Assembly: GCF_003841485.1 (NCBI RefSeq)
Contig: NZ_REFY01000003.1
Location: forward strand, 434,001 to 498,000
Direction: 5' to 3'
Length of the DNA stretch: 64,000 nucleotides
DNA from: Natrarchaeobius halalkaliphilus
Lineage (GTDB): Archaea; Halobacteriota; Halobacteria; Halobacteriales; Natrialbaceae
The notes below the pieces were generated by a model. The model made no database searches and was not told where the DNA came from. It saw only the letters and a program-made list of their open reading frames with translations. Shown piece after piece: positions 1 through 59,950 of the stretch. Both the position numbers and the translations under genes were made by a program. Numbering within the stretch: the stretch's first letter is position 1; every line of letters starts with the position of its first letter.

Positions 1-1514
1 ACGAGGTGTATCCGGCCGCGGACGGACGAGAATTCTCTTTCGACGACGGTGACGACCTGCCGGCGACCGTCGACGAGACGGAGAGACGAGAGGCGGAGCT
101 GTCGGCCGACGGCGGCGTCGTCGGAGAGGACGGACGGGAGACCGGACCTGACTGGAACTGGCGACTCGTCACGGAGGGACGGGACGTAATCGCCGCGAGC
201 AACGAACCGCATTCCGACGCCGAAACGGCCGAGGAGGCGATCGATCGGGTTCGAGAACAGGCGAGCGAGGCCGAACTCATCGAGTTCGAAAACGCGGCGT
301 TTCAGGTCTACGAGGCGGACTCCGGCGAGTGGCGCTGGCGGCTCATCGACGAAGACGGGAACGTCCTCGCAGACAGCGGCGCAGAACACACCTCCCGAAA
401 CGAAGCTGCCGAAGCGATGATGACGCTGAAAGAACAGGCCCCCGAGGCCGAACTGCTCGAGATCGAAACCGCCGCATTCGAGCTGTTCGTCGACGAGGAC
501 GACGAGTGGGGCTGGCGGCTCATCGACGAGGGCGGCAAGCTCGTCGCCGAAGATCCAGCGACTCATCCGACCCGAGAAGCTGCCAAAGCGGCGATGGATC
601 GCGTGCTCGAGCACCTCGAGTCGGACGTTCGAACGATGCACGAGGCTATCTTCCAGCCGTACGCGGCCGAAGACTGGCACTGGCGGTTCGTTCTGCCAAG
701 CGGCGAAATCGTCGCCGTCGACGGTCAGGAACACCCGACGCGAGACGATCTCGTCGAACGGCTCGAAGCCGTTCGTGATGCGGCCGCGTCGGGACACCGA
801 TACACGATCGGTGACGTGACCGTCCAGCTCTACGGGACCGATGACTGGCAGTTCCGGTTGTTGAATCGAGATCGAGAGACGATCGCGGACTCGACCGTGT
901 CCTATACCAGCCAGAGTGAGGGACGCGCAGTCGTCGAGACGATAACCGACCACGCGACCGACGCTCCGATATTCGCGATCGAGGACGCTGTCGTCCGTCT
1001 CGAGAGCGACGGTGGATGGCAGTGGAGTCTGATCGACTACGAACGAGACGTGATCGGTTCGTCGGTCGACCCGGCGGCTGACAAATCGGCGCTGAAATCG
1101 GAAGTCGAAACCGTCCGTCGGCTCGCACCGCTGGCCGGTCGGGTCGACTTCGACGTCGCGTCGTTCGAACTCGTCACCGACGAGGACGACCGCTGGCGGT
1201 GGCGACTCCTCGACGAGGACGGCCGCACCGTCGCGATCAGCTCCGAGACGTTCGACTCGATCGAGGTCGGCCGGGAAGCACTCGAGGGGGTCCGTGAACT
1301 GATCGACGCGGCGAGTATCCTCGAGATCGACAGCGTCTCCTTCGAGTTACACGCGGCCGAAGACGACGATGGCTGGGTGTGGCAACTGGTCGATGAGTAC
1401 GGAACCACGATGGCCGAGAGCACGCGGGTGTACGACACACGAACGGCCGCTCGCGAGGCCATGAACAACGTGAAGGCTCAGGCACCTGGGGGATGGATCA
1501 CATTCACTGACTGA
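1..1514 (+). CDS. DUF1508-type repeat protein, 5' end outside the window
   Basis: The reading frame is open to the left edge, and the residues before the first possible start (GTG at 6) continue a repeat unit, so the true start lies upstream. About 500 residues are visible. They hold eight units of 50-60 residues, each opening with an aromatic pair (WNWRLV, WRWRLID, WGWRLID, WHWRFV, WQFRLL, WQWSLI, WRWRLLD, WVWQLVD), followed by a D/E-G turn, an alpha-helix rich in Ala/Glu and an F-x-[LVI] strand. This is the pattern of the small YegP/DUF1508 fold, normally present in one or two copies. The protein is very acidic, with no signal peptide or membrane segment in the visible part. Function is unknown; a binding or scaffold role is only a guess. 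The gene ends 137 bases before the chosen start of the next one. Confidence 0.8.
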   Translation, partial: EVYPAADGREFSFDDGDDLPATVDETERREAELSADGGVVGEDGRETGPDWNWRLVTEGRDVIAASNEPHSDAETAEEAIDRVREQASEAELIEFENAAFQVYEADSGEWRWRLIDEDGNVLADSGAEHTSRNEAAEAMMTLKEQAPEAELLEIETAAFELFVDEDDEWGWRLIDEGGKLVAEDPATHPTREAAKAAMDRVLEHLESDVRTMHEAIFQPYAAEDWHWRFVLPSGEIVAVDGQEHPTRDDLVERLEAVRDAAASGHRYTIGDVTVQLYGTDDWQFRLLNRDRETIADSTVSYTSQSEGRAVVETITDHATDAPIFAIEDAVVRLESDGGWQWSLIDYERDVIGSSVDPAADKSALKSEVETVRRLAPLAGRVDFDVASFELVTDEDDRWRWRLLDEDGRTVAISSETFDSIEVGREALEGVRELIDAASILEIDSVSFELHAAEDDDGWVWQLVDEYGTTMAESTRVYDTRTAAREAMNNVKAQAPGGWITFTD

Positions 1515-1622
1515 CACCCTCGTGAGGTGTAATGCGATCTACGAGTGGAAAAATAACTGTAGCCAGGAGCGTCGATCGAATCGGGACTCGAGCGAACGGC
1601 GTTACCGATCGAATCGGTCGCC

Positions 1623-1630
1623 TTTTTATT
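1623..1630 (+). promoter_or_regulatory. TATA box of the phosphopantothenate synthetase gene
   Basis: TTTTTATT centred about 25 bases before the GTG at 1652. This is the spacing expected for a leaderless haloarchaeal transcript and favours that start over the longer frame from 1532. Confidence 0.55.
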
Positions 1631-1651
1631 ACCGACGCCTACCCATCGACA

Positions 1652-2428
1652 GTGAGCGACTACGACACCGTCTCTGCCGACGTCGAACACGAAGACGAGA
1701 TTCCGGAGGATCACCCGCGTTATCAGGATCTCCTCACCCGCCACCGAATCGAGAAGGGCGTCGACAAGGGAATCACGCATCTCCAGGGAATGCACGCCGA
1801 GGGCCGTGGTAGCGCCTTCGATTATCTGCTCGGTGAAGAGACGATTCCCAGCGCGAACGACGCAGAGCGGGCGGCCGCCGCGGAACTCCTGCTCGCGGAG
1901 CGACCGGTGCTTTCGATCAACGGTAACGTCGCGGCGCTCGTCCCCGGCGAGATGGTCGACCTCGCGGACGCCGTCGGCGCCGACCTCGAGGTCAACCTGT
2001 TCAATCGAACTCCCGAACGCATCGCGGCCATCGCGTCCCACTTGCGCGAACACGGAGCCGAGGAGGTAAAAGGACTGGAGGGCGACGCACGCATTCCGAA
2101 CCTCGACCATCAGCGTGCGAAAGTCGATGCCGACGGCATCTACGCGGCGGACGTCGTGCTCGTGCCGCTCGAGGACGGTGATCGGGCCGAGGCGCTCGAC
2201 GAAATGGGAAAAACCGAGATCGTCATCGATCTGAATCCGCTCTCGCGCTCCCCGCAGGTCGCAGAGGTTCCGATCGTGGACAACATCGTTCGAGCGGTGC
2301 CGAATATGACCGAACACGCGCGCGAACTCGCGGGGTCAAACGAGGATGCTCTCCGCACCATCGTCGACGAGTTCGACCGGACGAAAGCCCTCGAAGCGGC
2401 TGAATCCCGTATTCGAAACGGCCTCTGA
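1652..2428 (+). CDS. 4-phosphopantoate--beta-alanine ligase (archaeal phosphopantothenate synthetase)
   Basis: Joins 4-phosphopantoate and beta-alanine using ATP to give 4'-phosphopantothenate, the archaeal replacement for bacterial PanC/PanK in CoA synthesis; cytosolic. The 258-residue protein matches the archaea-only COG1701 (DUF137) family throughout: HPRYQDLLTRHRIEKGVDKG near the N-terminus, then LQGMHAEGRG, LSINGNVAALVPGEM, LEVNLFNRTPER, DVVLVPLEDGDR and IDLNPLSRSPQ. The frame is open from 1532, but the extra 40 residues are unlike the family. I chose the GTG at 1652 because a TATA box lies about 25 bases before it and the resulting length is normal. The gene stands alone between a repeat protein and a palindromic element. 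Confidence 0.9.
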   Translation: MSDYDTVSADVEHEDEIPEDHPRYQDLLTRHRIEKGVDKGITHLQGMHAEGRGSAFDYLLGEETIPSANDAERAAAAELLLAERPVLSINGNVAALVPGEMVDLADAVGADLEVNLFNRTPERIAAIASHLREHGAEEVKGLEGDARIPNLDHQRAKVDADGIYAADVVLVPLEDGDRAEALDEMGKTEIVIDLNPLSRSPQVAEVPIVDNIVRAVPNMTEHARELAGSNEDALRTIVDEFDRTKALEAAESRIRNGL

Positions 2429-2449
2429 TCGACGTCCACCCCTGTCCTG

Positions 2450-2535
2450 TGATACGGGTTACTGTAACGATTTACCGGCGCACCCGCCGCCCGGGTCGCG
2501 GGTGCGCCGGCAATGATTTACAGTAAACCGTATGA
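2450..2535. repeat. 86-bp palindromic element (MITE- or REP-like)
   Basis: Two 38-base arms (2450-2487 and 2498-2535) are inverted copies of each other with a 10-base loop. The inner 13 bases (2475-2487 against 2498-2510) pair perfectly and are very GC-rich. The outer parts share TTACTGTAA and ATACGG with a few mismatches. It has no coding potential. The outer end TGATACGGGTTACTGT (2450-2465) recurs with one change at 49228-49243. The shape suggests a non-autonomous mobile palindrome; no transposase is nearby. It could also terminate the upstream gene. Confidence 0.6.
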
Positions 2536-2572
2536 AAGGTTTATCATCTCGATCGGTGTGAGTCCACTGAAC

Positions 2573-2767
2573 ATGTCTCGAGTAGTCCTCCGAACGGTCG
2601 ACTCGGCAATCAGCGCGGAACGCACCGACGCGTTCGTCACGAACCAGCCCAGCCGGACTCTCGGTCGGGTCCGATCGAAGGAGTCGTCCCCGGGACGGGC
2701 GTCGCTCCGTTCGGTTGACTTGGAACCGGGTTGGGGGTCGATCGTGACTGTGGAGGGGATAAACTGA
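2573..2767 (+). CDS. possible small leader ORF (64 codons) before the Ntn hydrolase
   Basis: An ATG at 2573 lies about 31 bases after a TATA-like GGTTTATC (2538-2545), as for a leaderless transcript. The frame runs 64 codons and its TGA overlaps the ATG of the next gene by one base (TGATG). No family is recognised. Composition is not strikingly acidic, so it may simply be a 5' leader. It is listed because the coupling geometry is suggestive. Confidence 0.25.
   Translation: MSRVVLRTVDSAISAERTDAFVTNQPSRTLGRVRSKESSPGRASLRSVDLEPGWGSIVTVEGIN
2752..2758 (+). promoter_or_regulatory. Shine-Dalgarno site of the Ntn hydrolase gene
   Basis: GGAGGGG eight bases before the ATG at 2767. It fixes that ATG as the start, which puts a cysteine directly after the initiator methionine, rather than the in-frame GTG at 2731. 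Confidence 0.6.
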
Positions 2768-3756
2768 TGTGTACTCGTCTGGTCTATCTCGGTCCCGAAA
2801 ACCGCGTTCTCACGGCTCGATCGATGGACTGGAAGGAAGATATCGGGACGAACATCTGGGTGCTTCCTCGCGGTGTCGAACGCGACGGCGAGGTCGACTC
2901 GAACTCGATGACCTGGACGTCCGAGTACGGAAGCGTGATCGCGACCGCTTACGACATCGCCACCACCGACGGCATGAACGAAGCCGGTCTGGCGGCCAAC
3001 CTGTTGTGGCTGTCCGAGTCGGAGTATCCCGAACGGGGCGGCGAAACGCCGGCAATGTCGATCTCGCTGTGGACTCAGTATATGCTCGACAGGTTCGCCA
3101 CGGTTGCCGAGGTCGTCGCACACATCCGTCGAGAGGACGTTACGGTCGTAACCGAGCAGGTGCCGGGTGACGATCGTCTGGCGACGGTCCACCTCTCCCT
3201 GTCGGATGCCACGGGCGACAGCGCGATCCTGGAGTATATCGACGGCGAACTCGTCGTTCACCACGATCGTGACTTTCAGGTGATGACAAACTCTCCCACG
3301 TTCGACAAGCAACTTGCACTGGCCGAGTACTGGGAGGAGATCGGCGGCACGGTTATGTTACCGGGGACGAACCGGCCGGCCGACCGGTTTGCGAGGGCGA
3401 GTTTTTACGTCGACGCGATACCACAGGTCGAGGATCGTCGAACAGCGACCGCCGGCGTATTCGGCGTGATTCGGAACGTCTCCGTTCCACACGGCATCAC
3501 CACGCCCGACGCACCGCACATCTCTTCGACGCGTTGGCGATCCGTCGCAGACCACAAAGACCGCATCTACTACTTCGAGTCGGCGCTCGCCCCGAACGCA
3601 TTCTGGGTGGAACTCGACGAGCTCGACTTTTCGGTCGGTTCCGAGACTCGAGCGCTCGATCTCGGACCCGATCAGTCCACCGTCTACGCCGGGGACGTTT
3701 CCGACCAGCTACAGATCACGGATCCGTTCTCGTTTCTCGGAGCAGCCACCGGATAG
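2767..3756 (+). CDS. linear amide C-N hydrolase, choloylglycine hydrolase / penicillin V acylase family (Ntn hydrolase)
   Basis: Predicted to cleave linear amides, in the family of bile-salt hydrolases, penicillin V acylases and N-acyl-homoserine-lactone acylases. With the start at 2767 the protein begins MCTR, so removal of Met exposes Cys as the N-terminal nucleophile. Other family marks are the R-x-MDW segment (TARSMDWKED), DGMNEAGLAANLLWL, a GD-SAILEYIDG strand, and MTNSPTF carrying the conserved Asn. At 329 residues it is a normal length. There is no signal peptide and bacterial secretion features are absent, so it is probably cytosolic. The substrate cannot be told; quorum-signal or N-acyl amino acid cleavage is speculation. 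A good Shine-Dalgarno site precedes it. It is flanked by a palindromic element and by an extracellular beta-helix gene. Confidence 0.85.
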   Translation: MCTRLVYLGPENRVLTARSMDWKEDIGTNIWVLPRGVERDGEVDSNSMTWTSEYGSVIATAYDIATTDGMNEAGLAANLLWLSESEYPERGGETPAMSISLWTQYMLDRFATVAEVVAHIRREDVTVVTEQVPGDDRLATVHLSLSDATGDSAILEYIDGELVVHHDRDFQVMTNSPTFDKQLALAEYWEEIGGTVMLPGTNRPADRFARASFYVDAIPQVEDRRTATAGVFGVIRNVSVPHGITTPDAPHISSTRWRSVADHKDRIYYFESALAPNAFWVELDELDFSVGSETRALDLGPDQSTVYAGDVSDQLQITDPFSFLGAATG

Positions 3757-4099
3757 GATGACCGTCGACGGACGACATTGAGAAACCGTAGCCACCGAGC
3801 GATCGTTCCAACCGTGGTGATGCAGACGTCTCTCGTACGATCCTCGATTTCCCCATGCTGGCATCGAACCGTGCCTCCGTCGTCCGAGTAGTGTGGAGTG
3901 ACGTACAGTGGCTACTATCGAGGCCCCGATGGGAATACACGGGACACCATCGAAGACGGCGACAGCGGCCAGCGTTCGGCCGACATCTATTTACCCGGAT
4001 ACTGATACTACTACAACGACCGAGAGAATCGTGTTTCGGGCGACGAAAACGGTCTCAGTCGGGGAACCAGCACTGCATCAGCGGCTGCGATGAACGGTC
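3757..4099. other. 343-bp intergenic stretch
   Basis: No convincing gene. A 61-codon frame from GTG 3908 to 4093 and frames in other phases look like chance. A TATA-like CTATTTACC near 3985 could be the promoter of the 4100 gene, giving a leader of about 80-90 bases. I see no repeat or RNA gene. Confidence 0.4.
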
Positions 4100-6217
4100 A
4101 TGTCAGGAACGACAGCAACGCATCTCGTGTTCTTCATCATCCTCCTGGTCGCCTCGTCAGCGTTTGCGCTGACGCTCGTCGGCCACACTCACGTGGTCAG
4201 CGACGCAATCGACGGATACGGATCGACGACGGTGGACGAAATCGAGACCGAGATCGCCGTGATCAGCGATCCCGAGAGTCACGCAACAATCTACGATCCG
4301 CGGGACGAAGACGATCAGGTGAGCGTTCTCGTTTCGAATATCGGTGATAGTTCGATCCCGCTCGGCGGAAACGATGTCGGAATCGTGATCGACGGCGAGT
4401 ACGTTTCCGATCCACACGTCGAAATCCTCGAGGATCCGTCGGCGTCGGTCTGGCAACCGGAGTCGACCGCACGGATCAGCTTCGATCGGGAGCTGGATCC
4501 GGGAGCCCACCGGCTGGTCGTCAGCGTCGCTTCGAACGAGGACGTCCTCGAGTTCGAGGTTCCGGAAATCGGTGATCCTGCGGCGGTGTCCTACGAGGCC
4601 GAGCCGGACAACGAGACGGTCGACGACGGCGAGACGATCGCGTACGAGGTGACGATCGAGGACGGGTTCGGTGATCCCGTCGGAGAAGACGTCGAGGTGG
4701 AAGCCGACGCGACGGACGGGTTCGACGTCGAGATCAACGGAGACGGGGACGTGACGACCGAACTGACCGATGCCGACGGAAAGGTGACGCTCGACGTGAG
4801 CTCCGATACGACGCAGGACGACGTCGACGTCGTATTCACCGAACTGGTGAACGGGAATTCGGCCACCGGGAACGCCACCTGGGAGGGCGAACAGGAGGAC
4901 GGCTCGCTCTCGGGAATCGTCTCGACGGAGACGGAAGACGGTGATGACGAGGATCTCGAAGGCGAAACCGTGACCATCGAGAACAGTCCGGAGCAGACGG
5001 CCACGGTCGACGCCGACGGCAGCTACGAGTTCGACGACGTCGACGGCGGAGAGTATACCCTCTGGATCGACGCCGACGGCCACCGGTACTACGAGACGAC
5101 GGTCATCGTCGACGGCTCGACGACGCACGACGTTCCGCTTCTCGGGAACGTCGAGAACGTCGACGCGGAGACGAGTTATCGGTCACTCGACGCGGCTGCT
5201 GACGACGTGGCCGACGAGGAGACACTCGAGCTCGCTGAAACGACGTACGATGCCTCCGAGGGCGGGTCCTCGGCGGTCGACGTCACCGCCTCGAACGTCA
5301 CGGTTCGGTCGCTCGGAACTCGCGAGGAAACCGTCCTCGACGCTGGCGGCGCGGACGTCGGCCTCTCGGTGAGGGGAGAAGGAGGTACGGTCGACGGGCT
5401 CACACTTACGAACGTGGATCCGTCCGGCACCGGGATCGAACTCGCGTCCGCGCCCGGTGCGACGCTCGAGAACGTCGACGTCAGTGAGACGGGGGTCGGA
5501 ATAGCCGTCGACGGATCCGACGCCGTCCAACTGACGAAGCTCGAGGCAACCGGAAACGACGATGTCGGCGTCCGCGTATCGGACAGCGACGAGATCGAAC
5601 TCGAGGACGTATACCTCACCGGAAACGGTGACGGGATTCGGATCTCCGAGAACACGATATTCACGCTCCGGCACAGCACCGTCTCGAACAACGTGGGAGA
5701 TGGTGTATCAGTTACTGACAGTACGGATCTCACCCTCAGTGATACCGTCGTTTCCGACAACGGCGGAGACGGATTGCGGATATTCGACGGCACCTCGATT
5801 TCCGTCGACTACACCCGCTTTGCGGATAACGGCGTGGACGGAATCCACCTGAGAGACACGAATAACGTCGATATCGTCTACGTCGAGTTACTCGAGAACG
5901 AACGCAACGGAGCGCTCGTTCAGGCGGACGAAGCGGTCATCGATCCGAGCGAGAACTATTTCCGCATCTGGTACAGTAACGTCGTCGACAACGGCGAGCA
6001 CGGGATGTGGGCCGAGGACAGCGAGAAACCCGACGGCGGAAACGGCGATCTCGGTGATGGTGAACTCCGGGTCGACGACGAGAAAATAACCGGCGAAGAA
6101 AACTGGTGGGGTGACGAAGACGGTCCCGAAGCGGCCGGGGCAAACGGCGTGAGTGATGAAACCATCCGGTTCGAGCCCGTCTCCGAAGGCGAACACGGAC
6201 AGGCCGGACCCCGGTAA
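4100..6217 (+). CDS. ArlG/FlaG-like N-terminus fused to Ig-like, carboxypeptidase-regulatory-like and right-handed beta-helix domains
   Basis: A 705-residue surface protein. Residues 1-35 form one hydrophobic membrane segment (HLVFFIILLVASSAFALTL), followed by DEIETEIAVISDP and a beta-sandwich with SNIGDSSIPLGGNDVGIVID up to about 155. This resembles haloarchaeal ArlG/ArlF (FlaG/FlaF), the stator proteins of the archaellum. Next come an Ig-like domain (about 160-270), a carboxypeptidase-regulatory-like fold (DGSYEFDDVDGGEYTLW, about 275-350), and from about 360 to 640 a right-handed parallel beta-helix with repeated N-x-V-S-D-[NS]-G-x-D-G turns. The C-terminal tail has ENWWGDEDGP, often seen at the end of such helices. 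It is strongly acidic. It probably sits in the membrane with the body in the S-layer space and binds or processes glycan. No archaellum genes are nearby. Confidence 0.7.
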   Translation: MSGTTATHLVFFIILLVASSAFALTLVGHTHVVSDAIDGYGSTTVDEIETEIAVISDPESHATIYDPRDEDDQVSVLVSNIGDSSIPLGGNDVGIVIDGEYVSDPHVEILEDPSASVWQPESTARISFDRELDPGAHRLVVSVASNEDVLEFEVPEIGDPAAVSYEAEPDNETVDDGETIAYEVTIEDGFGDPVGEDVEVEADATDGFDVEINGDGDVTTELTDADGKVTLDVSSDTTQDDVDVVFTELVNGNSATGNATWEGEQEDGSLSGIVSTETEDGDDEDLEGETVTIENSPEQTATVDADGSYEFDDVDGGEYTLWIDADGHRYYETTVIVDGSTTHDVPLLGNVENVDAETSYRSLDAAADDVADEETLELAETTYDASEGGSSAVDVTASNVTVRSLGTREETVLDAGGADVGLSVRGEGGTVDGLTLTNVDPSGTGIELASAPGATLENVDVSETGVGIAVDGSDAVQLTKLEATGNDDVGVRVSDSDEIELEDVYLTGNGDGIRISENTIFTLRHSTVSNNVGDGVSVTDSTDLTLSDTVVSDNGGDGLRIFDGTSISVDYTRFADNGVDGIHLRDTNNVDIVYVELLENERNGALVQADEAVIDPSENYFRIWYSNVVDNGEHGMWAEDSEKPDGGNGDLGDGELRVDDEKITGEENWWGDEDGPEAAGANGVSDETIRFEPVSEGEHGQAGPR

Positions 6218-6283
6218 CGAGATCACGATTCGATGCGCTCGAAACCAGACAGGAGGTGGACACGCTATCATCGTTCACAAAGT

Positions 6284-6291
6284 CATAAATC
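6284..6291 (+). promoter_or_regulatory. TATA box of tyrS
   Basis: CATAAATC centred about 30 bases before the ATG at 6318, which favours that start over the upstream ATG at 6153 (a 55-residue extension unlike the family and overlapping the beta-helix gene). Confidence 0.5.
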
Positions 6292-6317
6292 CGTCCGCTG
6301 ATTTCGCTCAGACAGAG

Positions 6318-7304
6318 ATGGATACCTACGACCTGATCATGCGAAACGCCGAGGAGGTCGTTACCGACGAGGAGGTGCGCGAGCTCGCGGACGATCCGGC
6401 GGGCAAACGCGCCTACGTCGGTTACGAGCCCTCCGGCGTTCTCCACATCGGCCACCTGTTGACGGCGAACAAACTGATCGACCTCCAGGAAGCTGGTCTG
6501 GACGTCGTCGTTCTCCTCGCGGACGTCCACGCCTACCTCAACGGAAAAGGGACCTTCGAGGAGATCCGCGACACGGCGGAGCGGATGAAAGCCCAGTTCA
6601 TCGCCTACGGTCTCGAGGAGGACAAAACCGAGTTCGTCTACGGCTCGTCGTTCCAGCTCGAGGAAGACTATACGCTCGACCTGCACGAACTCGAGCTTTC
6701 GACGACGATGAACCGCGCCCAGCGAGCGATGGCCGAGCTGCAATCGGGCGAGACCGCAAAAGTGAGTCACCTCGTTTATCCGCTGATGCAGGTCCTGGAT
6801 ATCGAGTACCTCGATCTGGATCTCGCGGTCGGTGGACTCGATCAGCGCAAAGTCCACATGCTCGCTCGCGAGGAGCTTCCGGAACTCGAGTACGACGCTC
6901 GACCGTGTCTGCACACGCCAATCGTGGCCGACCTGACGAGCGGGGAGGGCAAGATGTCCTCGAGCGAGGGCGCGACGATCTCGATGGAGGACTCGACCGA
7001 GGAACTCGAGGAGAAAGTCAACTCGGCGTTTTGCCCGCCGACGCGCGATCCCGAGGGCGATCTCGAGAACCCGGTGCTCGAACTGTTCGAGTACCACGTC
7101 TTCCCCCGATTCGAAACCGTGGTCGTCGAGCGACCGGAGGAGTACGGCGGTCCCCTCTCGTACGAGGCGTACGACTCCCTCGCGGACGACCTCGAGTCCG
7201 GCGAGCTCCATCCGGCCGACGCCAAGGGGACCCTCGCGAGTTACCTGGACGAACTTATCGAACCGGGTCGACGGACGTTACGAGAGCTGCGAGCCGAATC
7301 GTAG
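6318..7304 (+). CDS. tyrS: tyrosyl-tRNA synthetase
   Basis: Charges tRNA-Tyr with tyrosine; cytosolic class I synthetase of the short archaeal/eukaryotic type, 328 residues. The Rossmann core shows YEPSGVLHIGHLL (the HIGH motif), the tyrosine-pocket region LADVHAYLNGKG, GGLDQRKVHMLARE, and GKMSSSEGATI, the KMSKS loop. It has no C-terminal S4 domain, as usual in archaea. The start is the ATG at 6318, after a TATA box, beginning MDTYDLIMRNAEEV as in other haloarchaeal copies. It precedes the rpl18a-pfdA-ftsY group with a 133-base gap, so it is probably a separate transcript. Confidence 0.96.
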   Translation: MDTYDLIMRNAEEVVTDEEVRELADDPAGKRAYVGYEPSGVLHIGHLLTANKLIDLQEAGLDVVVLLADVHAYLNGKGTFEEIRDTAERMKAQFIAYGLEEDKTEFVYGSSFQLEEDYTLDLHELELSTTMNRAQRAMAELQSGETAKVSHLVYPLMQVLDIEYLDLDLAVGGLDQRKVHMLAREELPELEYDARPCLHTPIVADLTSGEGKMSSSEGATISMEDSTEELEEKVNSAFCPPTRDPEGDLENPVLELFEYHVFPRFETVVVERPEEYGGPLSYEAYDSLADDLESGELHPADAKGTLASYLDELIEPGRRTLRELRAES

Positions 7305-7437
7305 CCGCCGAGTGGAACACGCGATCGTCAGTGACCGAAACGAATCGCCGGGCCGGTCGTAACTACTCGAGTGAGTCAGGTCCTCGTGGCTCCGATGGAA
7401 GGGAAGATTCTTCCGACTGCCTGCCGGAGTGTGAGCC

Positions 7438-7614
7438 ATGAGTCAATTTACGGTCACCGGTCGGTTCAAAAGCCGCGACGGACTCGCGGAGTTCGAAACG
7501 ACGATCGACGCCGAAAACGAGAACGTGGCTCGCGAGCACGTACTCTCCCAACTCGGCAGCCAGCACGGACTCAACCGCACCCAGATCGACCTCGAGGAGG
7601 TCGCCCAGCGATGA
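7438..7614 (+). CDS. 50S ribosomal protein L18a (LX / L20a family)
   Basis: A 58-residue protein, MSQFTVTGRFKSRDGLAEF at the start and LNRTQIDLEEVAQR at the end, matching the archaeal LX (COG2157) ribosomal protein of the large subunit. Its TGA overlaps the ATG of prefoldin alpha (ATGA at 7611-7614), indicating translational coupling. The order LX, prefoldin alpha, ftsY is a typical archaeal gene string, which supports the call strongly despite the small size. Confidence 0.92.
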   Translation: MSQFTVTGRFKSRDGLAEFETTIDAENENVAREHVLSQLGSQHGLNRTQIDLEEVAQR

Positions 7615-8060
7615 GCCAGCAACAACTCCAGCAGCTCTCCCAGGAGATTCAAGAGATCCAACAGCAGATCGAGGCGATGCAGGCGAACGTCGAGTCGGTC
7701 CAGCAAGAAAAGACCGAAGCCGACGAAGCGATCGACGCACTCGAGACCCTCGAAACCGGATCGACCGTTCAGGTTCCCCTCGGCGGCGGTGCCTACCTTC
7801 GTGCGTCCATCGAGGACATCGACGAGGCGATCGTCGAACTCGGTGCCGAGTACGCCGCTGAGTTCGAGCAGGACGGTGCTATTTCCGTACTCGAGAACAA
7901 AAAGGAGAACCTCGACGACCGCATCGACGAGATCAACGAGGAGATCGCTGAACTCGAAAGCGAGAGCACCGAGCTCGAACAGCAGGCCCAGCAGATCCAA
8001 CAGCAGGCGATGCAACAGCAGATGCAGGGGATGGGTCAGGGGCCCAGCCCTGACGAGTAA
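7611..8060 (+). CDS. pfdA: prefoldin subunit alpha
   Basis: Alpha subunit of the hexameric chaperone prefoldin (GimC), which holds unfolded proteins for the thermosome. The 149 residues form the standard layout: an N-terminal coiled coil rich in Gln (QQQLQQLSQEIQEIQQQIEA), the central beta hairpins with ETLETGSTVQVPLGGGAYLR and the I-V-E-L-G strand, then a second long coiled coil (LDDRIDEINEEIAELESEST) and a Gln/Met-rich tail. The frame is open further upstream, but the start at 7611 follows from the ATGA overlap with the LX gene. It lies 14 bases before ftsY. Confidence 0.94.
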   Translation: MSQQQLQQLSQEIQEIQQQIEAMQANVESVQQEKTEADEAIDALETLETGSTVQVPLGGGAYLRASIEDIDEAIVELGAEYAAEFEQDGAISVLENKKENLDDRIDEINEEIAELESESTELEQQAQQIQQQAMQQQMQGMGQGPSPDE

Positions 8061-8074
8061 CGCAGGAGCCCCCC

Positions 8075-9340
8075 ATGTTCGACAACCTGAAGAAGAAGCT
8101 CGGGAGCTTCCGCGAAGACGCCGAGGAAGCTGCCGAAGAGAACGTCGAAGACGTCGAGGAAGGCGATCTCGAGGAAGATGATCTCGAGACCGGTGACGAA
8201 GACCCATCGACAAACGAGACGACGACCAGCGTGGACGCGGCGGCCGATCCACCGTCCTCCCGGAACGAAGGGGCCGAGGGCGCTCCGAAAACCGCTGTCA
8301 GCTCCGATCGTCAGGATGGGAGCTCCGATGGGGATCTCGAGACGGACCGCGACGAACGGACCGATCCGGGAGCAGGCCGCGCCGGAGTCGTCTCCGACGA
8401 CGGTCCCGCGGACGACGCGACCGGAGACGAACCGGATGAAGATAGCGGATCGACCGGCTTCGGACGGAAAGCCAAATCGCTCGTCAAAGGGAAGTTCGTA
8501 ATCGAAGCGGAGGACCTCGAGGGGCCCCTTCACGAACTCGAGATGGCGCTGCTCTCGAGCGACGTCGAGATGGGCGTCGCAGAGGAAATCCTCGACAACA
8601 TCCGCGACGAACTGATCGGTGAGACGCGAACGTTTACGACCTCGACGGGCGACGTCGTCGAAAACGCGCTTCGGGATGCCATCTACGACGTGATCAGCGT
8701 CGGGCAGTTCGACTTCGACGAGCGTATCGCCCTCGAGGACAAGCCCGTCACCATCGTCTTTACCGGCGTCAACGGCGTCGGAAAGACCACCTCGATCGCG
8801 AAGCTCAGTCGCTACTTCGAAGACCGAGGCTACTCGACCGTGGTGGCAAACGGCGACACCTACCGCGCCGGGGCAAACGAACAGATCCAGGAGCACGCAG
8901 ACAGGCTCGAGACGAAGCTCATCGCCCACGAGCAGGGCGGTGATCCCGCAGCAGTGTTGTACGACGCCGTCGAGTACGCCGATGCCAACGACGTCGACAT
9001 CGTCCTCGGTGACACTGCAGGGCGCCTCCACACCGACGAGGGACTGATGGATCAACTCGAGAAGATCGATCGCGTCGTCGGTCCCGACATGACGCTGTTC
9101 GTCGACGAGGCAGTCGCCGGTCAGGACGCGGTCAACCGTGCACGAGAGTTCGACGCCGCTGCCGAGATCGACGGTACGATTCTGACGAAAGCCGACGCCG
9201 ACTCGAACGGTGGGGCCGCGATTTCGGTCGCCCACGTCTCCGGAAAACCGATCCTGTTTCTCGGCGTCGGACAGGGCTACGACGACCTCGAACGGTTCGA
9301 TCCCGACGAGATGGTCGATCGGCTGCTTGCCGAGGAGTAA
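8075..9340 (+). CDS. ftsY: signal recognition particle receptor FtsY
   Basis: GTPase that docks SRP-ribosome complexes at the membrane. The 421 residues divide into a long, highly acidic N-terminal A region (about 1-130), which haloarchaea use for membrane contact, and the NG domain (about 130-421). G motifs are clear: GVNGVGKTTSIAKL (P loop), DTYRAGANEQ (insertion box), DTAGRLHTDEGLMDQL, TKADADSNGGAAIS, and the closing GVGQGYDDLERFDP. The start at 8075 follows prefoldin alpha by 14 bases, so they share a transcript. srp54 is not in the window. Confidence 0.97.
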   Translation: MFDNLKKKLGSFREDAEEAAEENVEDVEEGDLEEDDLETGDEDPSTNETTTSVDAAADPPSSRNEGAEGAPKTAVSSDRQDGSSDGDLETDRDERTDPGAGRAGVVSDDGPADDATGDEPDEDSGSTGFGRKAKSLVKGKFVIEAEDLEGPLHELEMALLSSDVEMGVAEEILDNIRDELIGETRTFTTSTGDVVENALRDAIYDVISVGQFDFDERIALEDKPVTIVFTGVNGVGKTTSIAKLSRYFEDRGYSTVVANGDTYRAGANEQIQEHADRLETKLIAHEQGGDPAAVLYDAVEYADANDVDIVLGDTAGRLHTDEGLMDQLEKIDRVVGPDMTLFVDEAVAGQDAVNRAREFDAAAEIDGTILTKADADSNGGAAISVAHVSGKPILFLGVGQGYDDLERFDPDEMVDRLLAEE

Positions 9341-9372
9341 CGAACTCGAGGCACTCGGTAGCCGCCTTTTCC

Positions 9373-9585
9373 TCAGCCACCCTTGATCAGCCGCAAGACG
9401 GTAACGTGGTCGGCGTCGACGGGCTGATCCTCCGGTACCGGTCGGCCGTCGACGAGGACGCTCACCTCGTGAGGGCTGAGATCGACCTCGTGAAGGAGAT
9501 CGGTGTACGTCGGGCTCGAGTCGCCGTCGGTAGCCAGATCGATCTCGTAGGTTCCTTCCCCCTTGACGTCGACGGTGACGCACAT
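9373..9585 (-). CDS. samp2: ubiquitin-like small archaeal modifier protein SAMP2
   Basis: A 70-residue beta-grasp protein ending LRLIKGG. The diglycine tail is the site that UbaA adenylates. It can then be attached to lysines of target proteins (sampylation) or carry sulfur for tRNA thiolation, as known for SAMP2 of Haloferax volcanii. The segment DLLHEVDLSPHEVSVLVDGR followed by PVPEDQ is nearly the same as in that protein. The start ATG is at 9585; longer upstream frames are antisense shadows of the bactofilin-like gene. It converges on ftsY with a 32-base gap. UbaA is not in the window. Confidence 0.9.
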   Translation of the reverse strand: MCVTVDVKGEGTYEIDLATDGDSSPTYTDLLHEVDLSPHEVSVLVDGRPVPEDQPVDADHVTVLRLIKGG

Positions 9586-9674
9586 ACGAACCGTTGGGAC
9601 AGTGCAGACTTGAGGGCGTCGCTCGTGGATCGTTTTTGAATCTCGAGCGAGCGATCGGGGCGGGTGACCGGTCG

Positions 9675-10760
9675 TCAGTCCGTCGGGGTTTCTTCGGGTC
9701 TCACGCCCGGCTCTCGATCGCGATCCCGAAGCGCCCGGCGATGGCCGTAAACGCCGCGTGCGAGCGCGCCGAGACCGAGCAGGAGGACGATCAGGTTGAT
9801 CGGGGTCCCGAGATAGGGAATCTGAACGACGGCGGCTCCGGCGACCAATCCCACAACGAGCGCGATCCATCGGTTTCCCACGCCGACGGCCGAGAGGAGC
9901 CACGCCGCGACGGCGAATCGGCCGTAGATGATCGCGATCCAGATCGCCAGTGCGAACGCGAACCCGCCGACGAACGAGAGCGGAATCCCGACGACAGTGA
10001 TCGCGAGCGCGATCAACAGGATCGGCACGCCGACGAGCACGCCGAGTCCGACGAGCCCCGTTCGGACCGGATCGGTCGCGACGCTCGCGGAAACGCCAGC
10101 GGAGAATCGCGGAAACAGTGCGAGCAACGCGGCACCGATCAGCAGGTTCAACGCGAGGACGTACAGCGAGAACACCCACGATACGATCGGATCGAGCGTC
10201 GGGGCGAACTCGCCGCCGAGCGAGGAATCGTGACGAATGTCGCCCGCGACGGCACCCGTGTTCCCGACGAGATCGCCGCCGTAGCGCAGATCGCCGGCGA
10301 TTGCGGCCTCGTCTCCGAGTCTGATCGTGTCCGCCCCGATGGCCACGTCGCCGTCGACGACGCCGTCGACGGTCGCGCTTCCGGCACCGGCCGAGAGGTC
10401 CCCACCGACGGTCGCACCGTCCGTGATCTCGAGGCTACCGGAGGCGGCCTGAACGTCGCCGTCGACGGTGCCGGCGATCGTGACGCTTCCGCCGGCTGCC
10501 TCGACGTCCCCGCCCACGTCGCCGTGGATGCGAATATCGCCCGCAGCGGCGCTGACGTCGCCGGTAACCGTTCCCTCGACGACGACCGTTCCCGCGAACG
10601 CCTCGAGGCTGTCGACCGTTTCTCCCTCGGAAACGGTGACGGTACCGCCGACCTGCGAACTCGACTGGGCGGCGGCCGTCGCCGGCACCGTCGCACAGAG
10701 AACGACGGCGAGGGCGACGAGGACGACGACTCGTCTCCGGAGTGTGGACCGTTCGGGCAT
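9675..10760 (-). CDS. exported bactofilin-like (polymer-forming) membrane protein
   Basis: 361 residues. A signal peptide (basic RRR, then [21 protein letters not shown]) is followed by a beta-solenoid of about 140 residues built from 17-20-residue turns of the form G-D-V-x-A-x-x-G-x-[IV]-x-[IV], as in bactofilins/DUF583. After it come about five membrane helices from residue 180 on ([20 protein letters not shown], then [20 protein letters not shown] and others) and a charged tail. The solenoid is thus outside the cell, unlike cytoplasmic bactofilins. The ATG at 10760 is preferred over 10787 because a TAGCTTTTT element lies 26-36 bases upstream. Function unknown; a surface scaffold is plausible. 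Confidence 0.75.
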
Positions 10761-10860
10761 GCGGACTCGTACCACACGGAGTCGCAAAAAGCTATCAGTG
10801 ATGTCTCAGTATCGTCGACTGGCCCGCCGGATCGAGATCGGCCACACCGCGCTTCGGTCG

Positions 10861-10868
10861 ATTTATTT
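10861..10868 (+). promoter_or_regulatory. TATA box of rfcS
   Basis: ATTTATTT centred 26 bases before the ATG at 10891; it decides the start against much longer open frame from 10468. Confidence 0.55.
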
Positions 10869-10890
10869 CCCGTCCCACCGTTGGGCCGGT

Positions 10891-11880
10891 ATGAGCGAGG
10901 CCGACGCCGAGACAGTCGAGGGAACTCCCGGCAGGACCGAAGTCTGGATCGAGAAGTATCGGCCCCAGCGGCTCGCGGATATCAAGGGTCACGAGGACAT
11001 CGTCCCACGACTCCAGCGCTACGTCGAGCGGAACGATCTCCCTCATCTCATGTTTGCCGGTCCTGCCGGAACCGGGAAGACAGCGAGCGCTCAGGCGATC
11101 GCCCGGGAAGTCTACGGCGACGACTGGCGCGAGAACTTCCTGGAGTTGAACGCCTCCGACCAGCGCGGGATCGACGTCGTCCGGGATCGAATCAAGGACT
11201 TCGCACGCTCGTCGTTCGGGGGCTACGATCACCGGATCATCTTTCTAGACGAGGCGGACGCACTAACCTCCGACGCCCAGTCCGCCCTCCGCCGGACGAT
11301 GGAGCAGTTCTCGAACAACACCCGGTTCATCCTCTCGTGTAACTACTCGAGTCAGATCATCGACCCGATCCAGTCCCGATGTGCCGTCTTTCGCTTTACC
11401 GAACTGGCCGACGGCGCAGTCGAGACGCAGATACGCGAAATAGCGGACGTCGAAGGGATAACGGTGACCGACGACGGAATCGCCGCGCTCGTGTACGCGG
11501 CAAACGGCGACATGCGAAAGGCGATCAACGCCCTCCAGGCCGCCGCAGTGATGGGCGAGACCGTCGACGAGGAAACGGTGTTTACGATCACGGCCACCGC
11601 CCGTCCGGAGGAAGTCGAGGCGATGGTCGACCACGCCATCGGCGGCGATTTCACCGCCGCCCGCGCCGCCCTCGAGGATCTGTTAACTGACCGCGGACTC
11701 GCCGGCGGCGACGTCATCGACCAACTGCATCGCTCGGCCTGGGAGTTCGAGATCTCCGAGCAGGCAACCGTGCGATTGCTCGAGCGACTCGGGGAAGTCG
11801 ACTATCGCATCACGGAGGGGGCGAACGAGCGCCTGCAACTCGAGGCGATGTTGGCGTCGCTGGCGCTCGAAAAAGAGTAG
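10891..11880 (+). CDS. rfcS: replication factor C small subunit
   Basis: Small subunit of the clamp loader that opens PCNA and places it on primed DNA. The 329 residues show the RFC boxes: [17 protein letters not shown], the Walker [32 protein letters not shown], Walker [21 protein letters not shown], the SRC arginine finger ([12 protein letters not shown]), and sensor 2 [12 protein letters not shown], followed by the C-terminal collar helices. The start at 10891 follows a TATA box and gives the usual haloarchaeal N-terminus. The large subunit is in the same window at 20.3 kb but not in the same operon. Confidence 0.96.
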
Positions 11881-55921: not shown

Positions 55922-56392
55922 ATGGAGGACGTGACGGAGGCCGGAATCTACGGACGGAAATCGTCGTACCTCGACCGATACGTACAGCTGGGTGCAGCGA
56001 GCGGCCGAGTCATCAGCGTTTCGTTCCCCGACGTTCCCGAGGACGAACTCGACGACGACCACCCGGTTCTCGAGTTACTGTTCGAGTATCTCGACGGCCT
56101 CGAGCCGGTCGTCTTCGACGACGTCACCGTCGCACTCACGATGCCGACCGATCAGCGAGCCGTCCTCGAACAGGTCGGAGAGATCCCCTACGGGGATCAA
56201 GTCGACGTGGAAACGCTCGCCAGGACGGTTCCCGACCTCGACCCCGACGACGACGACGATATCATCCTGATCCGAACGGCTCTCGACGAGAACCCTGCCC
56301 CAATCCTGATCCCCGATCACCGAGTTCGTGACGGACCGAGCGCCGCCCCGCCGGCCGTCGAACAGAAGCTACGCTCGCTCGAGGAGTTGTGA
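55922..56392 (+). CDS. MGMT/alkyltransferase-like protein without the active-site Cys
   Basis: 156 residues. The C-terminal part matches the DNA alkyltransferase domain: ALTMPTDQRAVLEQVGEIPY-G-D-Q, then NPAPILIPDHRVRDGPSA and EQKLRSLEEL. The P-C-H-R-V box, whose Cys accepts the alkyl group, reads P-D-H-R-V. His and Arg remain. It should therefore not repair by alkyl transfer. It could bind alkylated DNA and flag it, as bacterial and fission-yeast ATL proteins do, though those usually have Trp or Ala there. It is divergent from trpC. Confidence 0.75.
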   Translation: MEDVTEAGIYGRKSSYLDRYVQLGAASGRVISVSFPDVPEDELDDDHPVLELLFEYLDGLEPVVFDDVTVALTMPTDQRAVLEQVGEIPYGDQVDVETLARTVPDLDPDDDDDIILIRTALDENPAPILIPDHRVRDGPSAAPPAVEQKLRSLEEL

Positions 56393-56467: not shown

Positions 56468-57298
56468 CTATCGGACACTCGACAGCCGTCCGTCGATCCA
56501 CTCCCCAACTGACCAGCGTCCGACGAGGTGGGCCGCGAGTGCAACGCTGACGTACGCGAGGACGATTCCTGCGAGAACGTCGATCACCCAGTGAATTCCG
56601 AGGTACATCGTCGAGATCGCCACGGAGACGCCGAGTATCGTGGCGACGAGAAACCACCGCGGGTAGACGTCTCGAGTCCGGTACGCCAGAAACGTCACCG
56701 TCGCCGCGAGCGAGGTGTGAAGCGACGGGAAGACGTTCGTATTGCGATTGACCTGTCGCGTCAGATGCTGATAGCGCGGATACGTATCGTACAGTAACGC
56801 ATCGACCAGCTCGGGCATCATGTTTCGCGGACCGTACGCGATAACGAAGACGTACAGAATCAACCCGACCGTGTAGTTGAGCGTGTACGCCGTCAGAAGC
56901 TCCCGCAACGGTCGGGTGTTCGAGAGCGCGAAGTACGCGATGACCGGAAAGACGAGCATGAAGACGTAGGCGTAGATGTAAATGAACGAGAAGTACGCGG
57001 TCACGGCGGGCGTCGCTTGCTCTTGCAACCAGAGGATGAACTGGCCCTCGAGGTCGTAGATCGCCCAGGTTACGTTCCAGCCGATCATCCACGAGAGCTC
57101 CGGGACGACCTGCCTCGCCACGCTGTTGAACAGGAGAACGATCGCGAGAAGTGCCGTAACCGGCACAGCGGCTCGAACGCGAGTTCGCCACTCGAGGCGC
57201 GTGTCTCGAAGCCGATACCGGCCGACGAAGACCGCGATCGAGACGAGCGTCAACAGCGTGACGACGACGACCAGCTGGACCAGGACGCGAACCAGCAT
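56468..57298 (-). CDS. PAP2-family phosphatase / lipid phosphotransferase-like membrane protein
   Basis: 276 residues with six or more helices, start ATG 57298. The PAP2 signatures are NTNVFPSLHTSLAATVTFLA (second motif with His) and TMYLGIHWVIDVLAGIVLAY (third motif with His and Asp); an Arg-containing segment RNMMPELVDALLYDTYPRY precedes. Aureobasidin-type inositol phosphorylceramide synthases have this F-P-S-L-H-x-S form. It should act on phospholipid or polyprenyl phosphates on the outer face. Its ATG overlaps the stop of the binding-protein gene by one base (TGATG), so the two are translationally coupled. Confidence 0.83.
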   Translation of the reverse strand: MLVRVLVQLVVVVTLLTLVSIAVFVGRYRLRDTRLEWRTRVRAAVPVTALLAIVLLFNSVARQVVPELSWMIGWNVTWAIYDLEGQFILWLQEQATPAVTAYFSFIYIYAYVFMLVFPVIAYFALSNTRPLRELLTAYTLNYTVGLILYVFVIAYGPRNMMPELVDALLYDTYPRYQHLTRQVNRNTNVFPSLHTSLAATVTFLAYRTRDVYPRWFLVATILGVSVAISTMYLGIHWVIDVLAGIVLAYVSVALAAHLVGRWSVGEWIDGRLSSVR

Positions 57299-59082
57299 CA
57301 GCGCCTCACCCGGAGACGCTCGCCGTCGTGTCGAAAGCCGGCTTCTTCGACGGCGGCCCTGACCGCCGCGAGGTCGATCTCGCCGTTCGACCCGAGAAAC
57401 GGCGTTACGGGATCGTTTCCGTCCCACTCGAGCGATTCGGGAGTCCATCCCGGCGTCACCGGCGTCGCGATGGGCCGTGCGTGGCCGTCGAAGACGTTCT
57501 CGATCAGCCACTCCTTATCGACGAGTCCCGCAACGAGACGGCGGAAACGGGGATTGGAGAACGGCCCGCTCCTGGTGTTGAACCCCAGGTGGTAGAACGA
57601 CCACGACGGCGACTCGAGCACCCGAACGTCGTCGGGCGTCGACTCGAGAACGTCGTCGACGACGTAGCTTTCGAGCGGGAGCGACGTGACGTCGGCGTCG
57701 GCTCCGTTGACCAGTTCGATCGCCGACGTACTCCGTGGATCGATGGCGATTCGAACGCGATCGACGGTCGGTTCCGGTCGGTCGACGTCGTCCCGAAGCG
57801 AGAAATGATCCGCGAAGCGCTCGAGTTCGACGTAGTCGCGCTCGGCCCACTCGCTGAACGCGAACGGGCCGCTGCCGATCGGTGGAACGTTGTCGGTGAC
57901 GAGCGCTTCAGTCGTTCCGCGCGCGACTCGAACTCCCCTGACGGTCGGGGAGCTCGCTCGCTCCGACCAGACGTGTTCGGGAAGAATCGGTACCGTCAAC
58001 GCCTGTTCGGCCGCCGGCCGTCCCGTGGCAAACGACAGCTCGAGTTCGTACTCTCCAGTTACCTCGATCGTCTCGACGGATTCGATTCGACCTCTGTATC
58101 GTGGTGTGGGTGCCGACACGTCGTCACCGAGCGTGGTATCGGAGAGAAACCGATAACTGAACGCGACGTCGTCCGCGGTTAGCGTCTCTCCGTCGTGGAA
58201 CAGACAGCGTTCCCGGAGATCGATCGTCATCGTTTCTTCGTCCCAGTCCCAGCCGACGGCGAGCCAGGGGACGAGTTCGTCCTCGGCGTCGACTGATCCA
58301 AGCGAATCGTACAGCAGGTCGAGCATCGTCCCCTGATCGCGGTACTCGACCGAAATCGGATTGAGATTCTCGGAGAGTCGGGCGTCGGTGTGGACGACCC
58401 GAAGCGTTTCGGCTCCGGTGTCGGTTCCGGTTTCGCCTTCGCTCTCGATCGGCTCGAGACCGAGATATCCGTCTCGTCTGGCGAGATGGGCGTCTTCCCA
58501 CCCGTCGAATCGGTCCGTTCTGGCGAGCCGGTACTCGTCGGGGAAACAGATCGGCACGAACGGCTGTTCGGTCGCAACCGCCTCGAGCGTCTCCGTGACG
58601 GCCGTCTCGCGGTCGTCCTCGGCGGCAGCCCGTTGGCGCTCGAGGAGGTCGTCGACGACCAGGTTCGCGAATCCAAACGGATTCTGCCAGCCCGCCTCGT
58701 CGACGTATCGCGAGTGAAGCGTTTCGTAGAGGTAGTCCGGATCGGTTCCGCCGGGGTGTTGGCCGACGTAGACGTCGAAATCGTGGTTGATCAGAATCGA
58801 CCGAAGGAACTCCTCATGAGATCGCATCTCGATCGAGACGTCCATACCGGCGTCCTCGAGTACGTTTCGGAGCGCTCGAGCGATCTGGATGCTCTCTCTG
58901 TCGCCGTCGGCCGGAACGGTCGTGATCGTCAGCTCGAGCTGATCGATTCCGTCGCGGTTGACGACGCTCCGGAGCTCCCGGACGCAGCCGCTGATCGAGA
59001 CGGTCGCTCCTGTCGTCGCCGCTAACATCGCTCGTCGACCGAAACGGCGTTCGCTGTCACCGTCCGGAACGGATCCGATCAT
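57298..59082 (-). CDS. family-5 solute-binding lipoprotein (peptide/nickel type), circularly permuted
   Basis: 594 residues. Tat signal and lipobox: ERRFGRRAMLAATTGATVSI ending S-G-C at residue 33. The order of SBP_bac_5 parts is swapped. Residues about 47-195 (TITTVPADGDRESIQIARAL, FDVYVGQHPGGTDPDYLYET, ATEQPFVPICFPDEYRLA) are what normally forms the C-terminal third. After a 30-residue acidic linker, residues about 225-594 start like a normal N-terminus (LRVVHTDARLSENLNPISVE, RCLFHDGETLTADDVAFSYR) and run to NPRFRRLVAGLVDKEWLIEN and AVEEAGFRHDGERLRVRR, where the missing third would begin. No ABC permease or ATPase gene is near; a PAP2 gene is coupled downstream. Confidence 0.85.
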   Translation of the reverse strand: MIGSVPDGDSERRFGRRAMLAATTGATVSISGCVRELRSVVNRDGIDQLELTITTVPADGDRESIQIARALRNVLEDAGMDVSIEMRSHEEFLRSILINHDFDVYVGQHPGGTDPDYLYETLHSRYVDEAGWQNPFGFANLVVDDLLERQRAAAEDDRETAVTETLEAVATEQPFVPICFPDEYRLARTDRFDGWEDAHLARRDGYLGLEPIESEGETGTDTGAETLRVVHTDARLSENLNPISVEYRDQGTMLDLLYDSLGSVDAEDELVPWLAVGWDWDEETMTIDLRERCLFHDGETLTADDVAFSYRFLSDTTLGDDVSAPTPRYRGRIESVETIEVTGEYELELSFATGRPAAEQALTVPILPEHVWSERASSPTVRGVRVARGTTEALVTDNVPPIGSGPFAFSEWAERDYVELERFADHFSLRDDVDRPEPTVDRVRIAIDPRSTSAIELVNGADADVTSLPLESYVVDDVLESTPDDVRVLESPSWSFYHLGFNTRSGPFSNPRFRRLVAGLVDKEWLIENVFDGHARPIATPVTPGWTPESLEWDGNDPVTPFLGSNGEIDLAAVRAAVEEAGFRHDGERLRVRR

Positions 59083-59179: not shown

Positions 59180-59950
59180 TCATTCGTCGGTCCCGTAGAG
59201 TCGGGCGTGTTCCGAGCAGAACGCCGGACGACGCAACTGAGCCTCGATCAGATCTTCGTGGTAGTGTGCGTTGAAGAGCCGACACCCCTCTCGCTCACAG
59301 AAACCGCTCCCTTCCTCTATGAAGTGGTAGGCCTGCAAGACGTATCCCGCGAGTGCGTCGGTCGAGCGTGGATCGTTCTCGATCAGGAACTCCCCGTCGA
59401 CCTGATTCTCGAGGACCTCCCGTGGAGGTGTGTCCCCGGAGATGAGCGAGTGTCGTTGTTTTTCCTTGTAGTACGCCTCGGGCTTTGCGGGGGCTTCGTA
59501 CAGCCCCGGAACCGAGACGAGCGCCGGCTGTCCGAGGACGTTCACCCGCTTGTGCCAGCGTCCGTCGTGGCCGCCCCAGGTTCCGATCGCGCGATCTATG
59601 ATCGGCACGTGAAGCGTCTCGAGTTCGCGTTCGCTTGCCGGAAGTACGCTGTTGAGCGTCCGCTGGACCGAGACGCCGTCGTAGAGGACGCCGCCCTCAC
59701 GGTCGGGGTTTTCTAGTGCGCGCTCTTCGTAGCGGATCGTCCCGAGCATCGTGTTCCCGGTAGCGCGTTCGTACGGCGACGTCACGCGAGCCTCTGCGAA
59801 CCGTTCGGGGAGCTCGTCGCTTCGATGAACCTCGAGAAACCGATCGCGAACGGCCACGTCGACGTCGGTTCGTCGCTCCAACCACGTGGCGAGTTCGTCG
59901 ACGTCGACGACGCTCGACGGTGCCCGATAAAGGATCACTCGATCGACCAT
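59180..59950 (-). CDS. conserved haloarchaeal protein with C-terminal Cys/His cluster
   Basis: 256 residues, MVDRVILYRAPSSVVDVDEL at the start. Middle: GTWGGHDGRWHKRVNVLGQP and PEAYYKEKQRHSLISGDTPP. The end has GFCEREGCRLFNAHYHEDLI and PAFCSEHARLY, that is C-x4-C-x21-C-x2-H, a plausible zinc site. The spacing recalls the structural zinc region of archaemetzincins, but no HExxH is present. I recall haloarchaeal relatives annotated as a putative metallopeptidase family (DUF6775), without certainty. Function unknown. Confidence 0.7.
   Translation of the reverse strand: MVDRVILYRAPSSVVDVDELATWLERRTDVDVAVRDRFLEVHRSDELPERFAEARVTSPYERATGNTMLGTIRYEERALENPDREGGVLYDGVSVQRTLNSVLPASERELETLHVPIIDRAIGTWGGHDGRWHKRVNVLGQPALVSVPGLYEAPAKPEAYYKEKQRHSLISGDTPPREVLENQVDGEFLIENDPRSTDALAGYVLQAYHFIEEGSGFCEREGCRLFNAHYHEDLIEAQLRRPAFCSEHARLYGTDE

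Follow-up and report, generated by a model that had tools for sequence, protein, structure and literature searches.

A haloarchaeal family-5 solute-binding lipoprotein with circularly permuted chain order, paired with a PAP2-family gene and belonging to a widespread class of probably repeated origin

Solute-binding proteins (SBPs) of family 5, among the largest binding-protein classes, are exported proteins with a two-lobe fold, and AppA (1xoc), NikZ (4oet), DppA (1dpe) and OppA (1ola) are canonical cluster C representatives. Natural permutation of chain order is already known in another SBP class: TpMglB-2 (Tp0684) of Treponema pallidum is a circularly permuted glucose-binding lipoprotein, for which its authors proposed a tie between permutation and membrane tethering (PMC4990184). 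It was the only natural permutant found in the open-access literature among solute-, substrate- or periplasmic-binding proteins. The haloarchaeal protein analyzed here resembles TpMglB-2 in being a natural permutant of an ABC-type solute-binding lipoprotein, predicted to be tethered, with an arrangement common to many relatives. However, TpMglB-2 is a type I/cluster B sugar binder (type Ic/cluster Bc, with a permuted N lobe) opened at another breakpoint, and no homology is claimed; the haloarchaeal protein is homologous over its whole length to the cluster C proteins and so lies outside the TpMglB-2 class, representing the same kind of event in another family. Like the canonical proteins, it is predicted to be exported and to adopt the two-lobe fold, but it differs from AppA, NikZ, DppA and OppA in carrying the canonical C-terminal third first, in having its termini in lobe II according to structural modeling, and in being encoded outside any permease operon. 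A natural permutation of a family-5 SBP was not found described in the open-access literature, an absence that is weak evidence as subscription papers lay outside the search, and no description of a haloarchaeal PAP2 protein paired with a binding protein was found there either.

The gene lies in the window, a 64-kb stretch of the Natrarchaeobius halalkaliphilus genome, and is organized as follows, with the support for each assignment in parentheses.

57298..59082, minus strand: gene for the circularly permuted SBP_bac_5 lipoprotein, 594 aa, ATG start (Pfam, Pfam on the rearranged sequence, profile–profile comparison)
58984..59082, minus strand: putative signal region, residues 1–33, with an RR pair (Tat-like) and a lipobox (ISGC) whose last residue is Cys33 (sequence; invariance in the focal clade)
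58483..58944, minus strand: residues 47–200, corresponding to the canonical SBP_bac_5 C-terminal third (hhalign, PF00496)
58420..58482, minus strand: residues 201–221, linker between the canonical C- and N-termini (linker lengths in permuted proteins)
57301..58419, minus strand: residues 222–594, corresponding to the canonical SBP_bac_5 N-terminal two-thirds (hhalign, PF00496, VIA-align to NikZ and AppA)

PF00496 recognizes the protein well above its threshold (164.3 bits, cut-off 32.4) in two stretches of swapped order, residues 269–587 aligning with profile positions 1–282 and residues 47–122 with positions 287–360. The canonical N-to-C order of the profile is thus absent, both in Pfam and in the swapped tiles of hhalign. 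When the sequence is put back into canonical order, these stretches merge into one (46–450, profile 1–360) and the bit score increases from 164.3 to 176.8. Profile–profile comparison by hhalign, in which a profile of the focal clade was set against one built from 54 canonical proteins, gives the same picture with greater reach: residues 47–199 correspond to canonical columns 340–490 (prob 99.4, E 2e-21) and residues 217–594 to columns 10–345 (prob 100, E 3e-58), and this comparison returned no scoring match beyond the two swapped halves. An earlier note, made from the sequence alone, had read the protein as circularly permuted, with the C-terminal third at residues about 47–195 and the canonical N-terminus starting near 225. 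Since the two halves tile the canonical protein, that reading is confirmed; the limits proposed were accurate to within a few residues, residues 40–200 do match SBP_bac_5 rather than another family, and a simple truncation or fusion would not produce this order. Matches of the first third to DUF6921 and OpuAC fell below cut-off and were disregarded. That an unrelated domain fused to the N-terminus, or a local rearrangement or assembly error, merely mimics permutation is now hardly conceivable, for although the first third alone scores weakly in single-sequence Pfam (22.7 bits, below cut-off), profile comparison matches it to the missing canonical third at prob 99.4 and to nothing else, which rules out the fusion, and the permuted order recurs in independent genomes, which rules out the artefact. 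Judged from its sequence, the protein is a circular permutant related to SBP_bac_5 and not a canonical member of the family; that it is a natural permutant of a family-5 SBP is held to be almost certain.

Residues R16, R17, G32 and C33 are invariant across the focal clade, and the RR motif and lipobox Cys33 predict Tat-type export and lipid anchoring. The linker has a median length of 20 aa among 176 permuted proteins and would join the old N- and C-termini, both of which belong to domain I (lobe I). By eye only, the aspartate that binds the alpha-amino group in OppA and DppA is seemingly missing.

AlphaFold2 predicts the protein in its permuted order with high confidence (pLDDT 90.0, pTM 0.87, alignment of 60 sequences), as it does for a Halomonas relative (pLDDT 88.1, pTM 0.83); residues 1–43 of the haloarchaeal protein have a pLDDT <50. 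The model aligns with NikZ at Z 23.4 (3.5 Å, 321 aa). In sequential structure alignment (VIA-align), residues 222/223–594 match the canonical N-terminal two-thirds with Z 20–23 (NikZ 3–328, AppA 17–357), so that model residue ~223 corresponds to canonical residue ~3 and residue 594 to canonical ~328–361, namely ~328 of NikZ, 357 of AppA and 361 of OppA. Such aligners keep sequence order and reveal the swap only through the points where the alignment begins and stops; as expected, the rest of the canonical protein, its last third, is left unpaired. A profile of bacterial permuted proteins matched 113 PDB sequences, and the 60 listed all have the canonical order. Residues 271–486 of OppA make up domain III, which means that the chain was opened inside the second lobe and that the lipid anchor shifts there. 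The break would fall in lobe II (OppA domain III), in a surface loop that follows the EAG(F/Y) helix, and place the anchor on this lobe. The suggestion in the earlier note that both termini contribute to one lobe holds in this respect for the old ends, now linker-joined, but not for the new ends, which are placed in the other lobe (OppA ~361, domain III).

The permuted order is not peculiar to this gene. Every close homologue checked is permuted. Within the same genome, five of the roughly nine SBP_bac_5 genes have this order (the focal gene at C3:491301, and C3:18857, C3:324085, C5:48069 and C1:230155), and three other SBP_bac_5 proteins tested have the canonical order. Proteins of the focal type, defined by E up to 1e-50, occur in 169 of 293 sampled Halobacteriales genomes and in 61 of 87 genera. 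Chain order was further assigned to each protein individually, by means of two profiles, in loci drawn from haloarchaea, methanogens and bacteria, which gave a redundant set of open frames, 176 of them permuted and 95 canonical. The class extends beyond the haloarchaea. Permuted proteins L070, L076 and L078 come from the same phylum outside haloarchaea, where their hosts are probably methanogens, and at least six bacterial phyla are represented, with hosts including Halomonas, Aliihoeflea, Martelella, Stappia, Natronospirillum, Oceanobacillus, Halanaerobiales, Desulfobacteraceae, Spirochaetaceae, Trueperaceae and Enemella (some bacterial records being metagenome bins). In nine such non-haloarchaeal genomes, the permuted order is a minority form, with 1–2 full-length permuted proteins among 11 to 28 matches. 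A sample of 299 Bacillota genomes contained several additional permuted proteins, and one of 299 Pseudomonadota genomes contained none besides that of the starting genome; as four candidates were scored per genome, these counts are no rates. Permuted SBP_bac_5 proteins are a widespread class in both archaea and bacteria. One permuted SBP from this phylum outside haloarchaea (L256, 5730–7472; the gene is also that of L070) has extra C-terminal sequence that includes a hydrophobic segment and a basic end, which suggests a C-terminal membrane or surface anchor replacing the lipobox.

How often the permutation arose was addressed with a tree of concatenated parts put back in canonical order. In it, one branch separates off most of the permuted proteins, from archaea and bacteria alike, and four small permuted sets (Bacillota, methanogen, L034 and L172) are nested among canonical proteins. 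Forcing every permuted protein into a single clade is rejected by the concatenated parts (dlnL 139, AU p 2e-5). Joining individual sets to the main permuted lineage is rejected for the Bacillota set (AU p 0.0012); separate origins are modestly supported for the methanogen set (p 0.039) and L034 (p 0.029), and the AU test gave no support for one in the case of L172 (p 0.45). The Bacillota lineage (L227, L228, L229, L233, L240, L243 and L247) groups with L215, a canonical Pseudomonadota protein, in both the full tree and the C-part tree, and provides the closest permuted/canonical pair, whose N parts are 48% identical across 315 aa. Visual inspection shows that the motif WTPSADSRINLHD at the C-terminus of L215 has a counterpart, WQPSMDSRINLHD, in the Bacillota permuted proteins, where it leads straight into the canonical mature N-terminus. 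These sequence relationships point to a separate permutation in the Bacillota lineage, the clearest case.

Recurrence has to be weighed against a single ancient event, in which case recombination or tree error would account for the scatter of permuted lineages. In its favor, all permuted forms are opened at the same loop, the tree contains long branches, and the C part alone, which lacks power, is compatible with one permuted clade (AU p 0.13). Against this, the concatenated data reject a single clade and the Bacillota lineage keeps its canonical neighbor in both trees, which makes a single event unlikely. The permutation has very probably arisen more than once in the family; at least two origins, every one in the same loop, are likely. 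Circular permutation usually proceeds through a tandem duplication whose outer pieces are then lost, and the events in family 5 may have taken this route.

Downstream of the SBP gene lies a second gene on the same strand.

56468..57298, minus strand: gene for a PAP2-family membrane phosphatase, 276 aa (PF14378, PF01569, junction with the SBP gene, catalytic-type residues)

Its product is above cut-off for PF14378 (8.4e-19, 68.6 bits versus a cut-off of 27), the PAP2_3 family of membrane phosphatases/phosphotransferases, and also matches PF01569 (4.2e-12). The catalytic-type residues are kept: R158, H194, H236 and D240 (in GPR158, PSLH194 and H236...D240) are >97% conserved among 97 such partners. 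The PAP2 ATG and the SBP stop codon overlap by one base (TGATG), which marks the two genes as probably coupled in translation. RefSeq names the products ABC transporter substrate-binding protein and phosphatase PAP2 family protein, with chain order unmentioned. To our knowledge, pairing with a solute-binding lipoprotein is no known feature of the PAP2_3 family. The pair was nevertheless found in 80 loci, some of which are repeats of one place, with the PAP2 start usually at the SBP stop. The pair and its overlapping ends persist across haloarchaeal families in which SBP identity is as low as ~35%, and in some genomes, such as that of Natronorubrum bangense, it is present as a tandem duplicate. 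Haloferax gibbonsii LR2-5 also has the pair (HfgLR_RS18595 and RS18600).

Gene context divides the permuted class. Counting only loci of at least 9 kb, 44 permuted genes have a PAP2 neighbor without a permease, 33 have a BPD-type permease without PAP2, and a single locus has both; in the PAP2-paired clade, a permease is absent for 44 of 45 genes. Permuted SBPs outside the focal clade stand in ordinary Dpp/Opp operons, and the permeases of example loci were confirmed by Pfam. No permease occurs within the 64-kb window around the focal gene, which together with the context counts rules out an ordinary transporter operon here. Other neighbors are a minus-strand gene upstream of the SBP gene (59180–59950) matching DUF7001 and DUF6775, a probable metallopeptidase family, and a small protein (55922–56392) with a sub-threshold match to the 6-O-methylguanine methyltransferase DNA-binding domain (24.5 bits, cut-off 27). 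On two plasmids (L259, Haloferax gibbonsii pHGLR2, 1–11872, and L261), the pair lies near glycan genes encoding phosphoglucosamine mutase, DegT/DnrJ and Gfo/Idh proteins, a possible hint at a role in the cell envelope.

Functionally, the ancestral permuted forms would have been binding proteins of Dpp/Opp-type ABC importers, and one haloarchaeal lineage would then have left the transporter. The lipoprotein of this lineage, Tat-exported and anchored through lobe II, would close on its ligand as its relatives do, bind it at the outer face of the membrane and hand it to the coupled PAP2 enzyme, which might remove phosphate from the ligand before uptake or recycling. The general outline, an exported, lipid-anchored, two-lobe permutant from a haloarchaeal lineage that left the transporter and is now paired with PAP2, is considered probable. 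More tentative is the specific proposal that the protein serves the coupled PAP2 phosphatase instead of ABC import, in which ligand, contact and direction of transfer are all conjectural; gene coupling alone is no proof of such service. The full scenario of several independent permutations at one loop, each moving the anchor to the other lobe, with one haloarchaeal lineage now acting as the ligand-presenting subunit of PAP2, is advanced with the same reserve.

The main rival is that the protein is an orphan part of an importer, feeding a Dpp/Opp-type permease whose gene lies at another site in the genome, with PAP2 merely co-transcribed. Orphan SBPs that work with permeases in trans are known, and this genome has DppBC-type permeases beside another permuted SBP (L249), so this explanation is a serious possibility, if not a favored one. 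What it leaves unexplained is that the PAP2 pairing with overlapping ends is maintained at ~35% SBP identity and even in tandem duplicates, at loci devoid of permeases. Less plausible still is a sensor or receptor, the anchored protein offering its ligand not to an enzyme or importer but to a transducer for chemotaxis or regulation. Haloarchaea are known to have lipid-anchored SBPs that supply chemotaxis transducers, but the focal gene has no coupled gene for a transducer or regulator, and what constantly accompanies it is a PAP2 protein whose catalytic-type motifs are intact. The role at PAP2 is the preferred, if tentative, reading.

Solved family-5 structures among the matches listed share one topology, and the permuted class is annotated just as ABC transporter substrate-binding protein. 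This class forms a natural experiment in which the effects of chain order, anchor position and lobe closure on permease docking could be examined. If repeated permutation at one loop is true, this loop would be a preferred site for topological change in the family; and if the PAP2 role is true, a haloarchaeal binding protein would have been recruited from transport to an enzyme.
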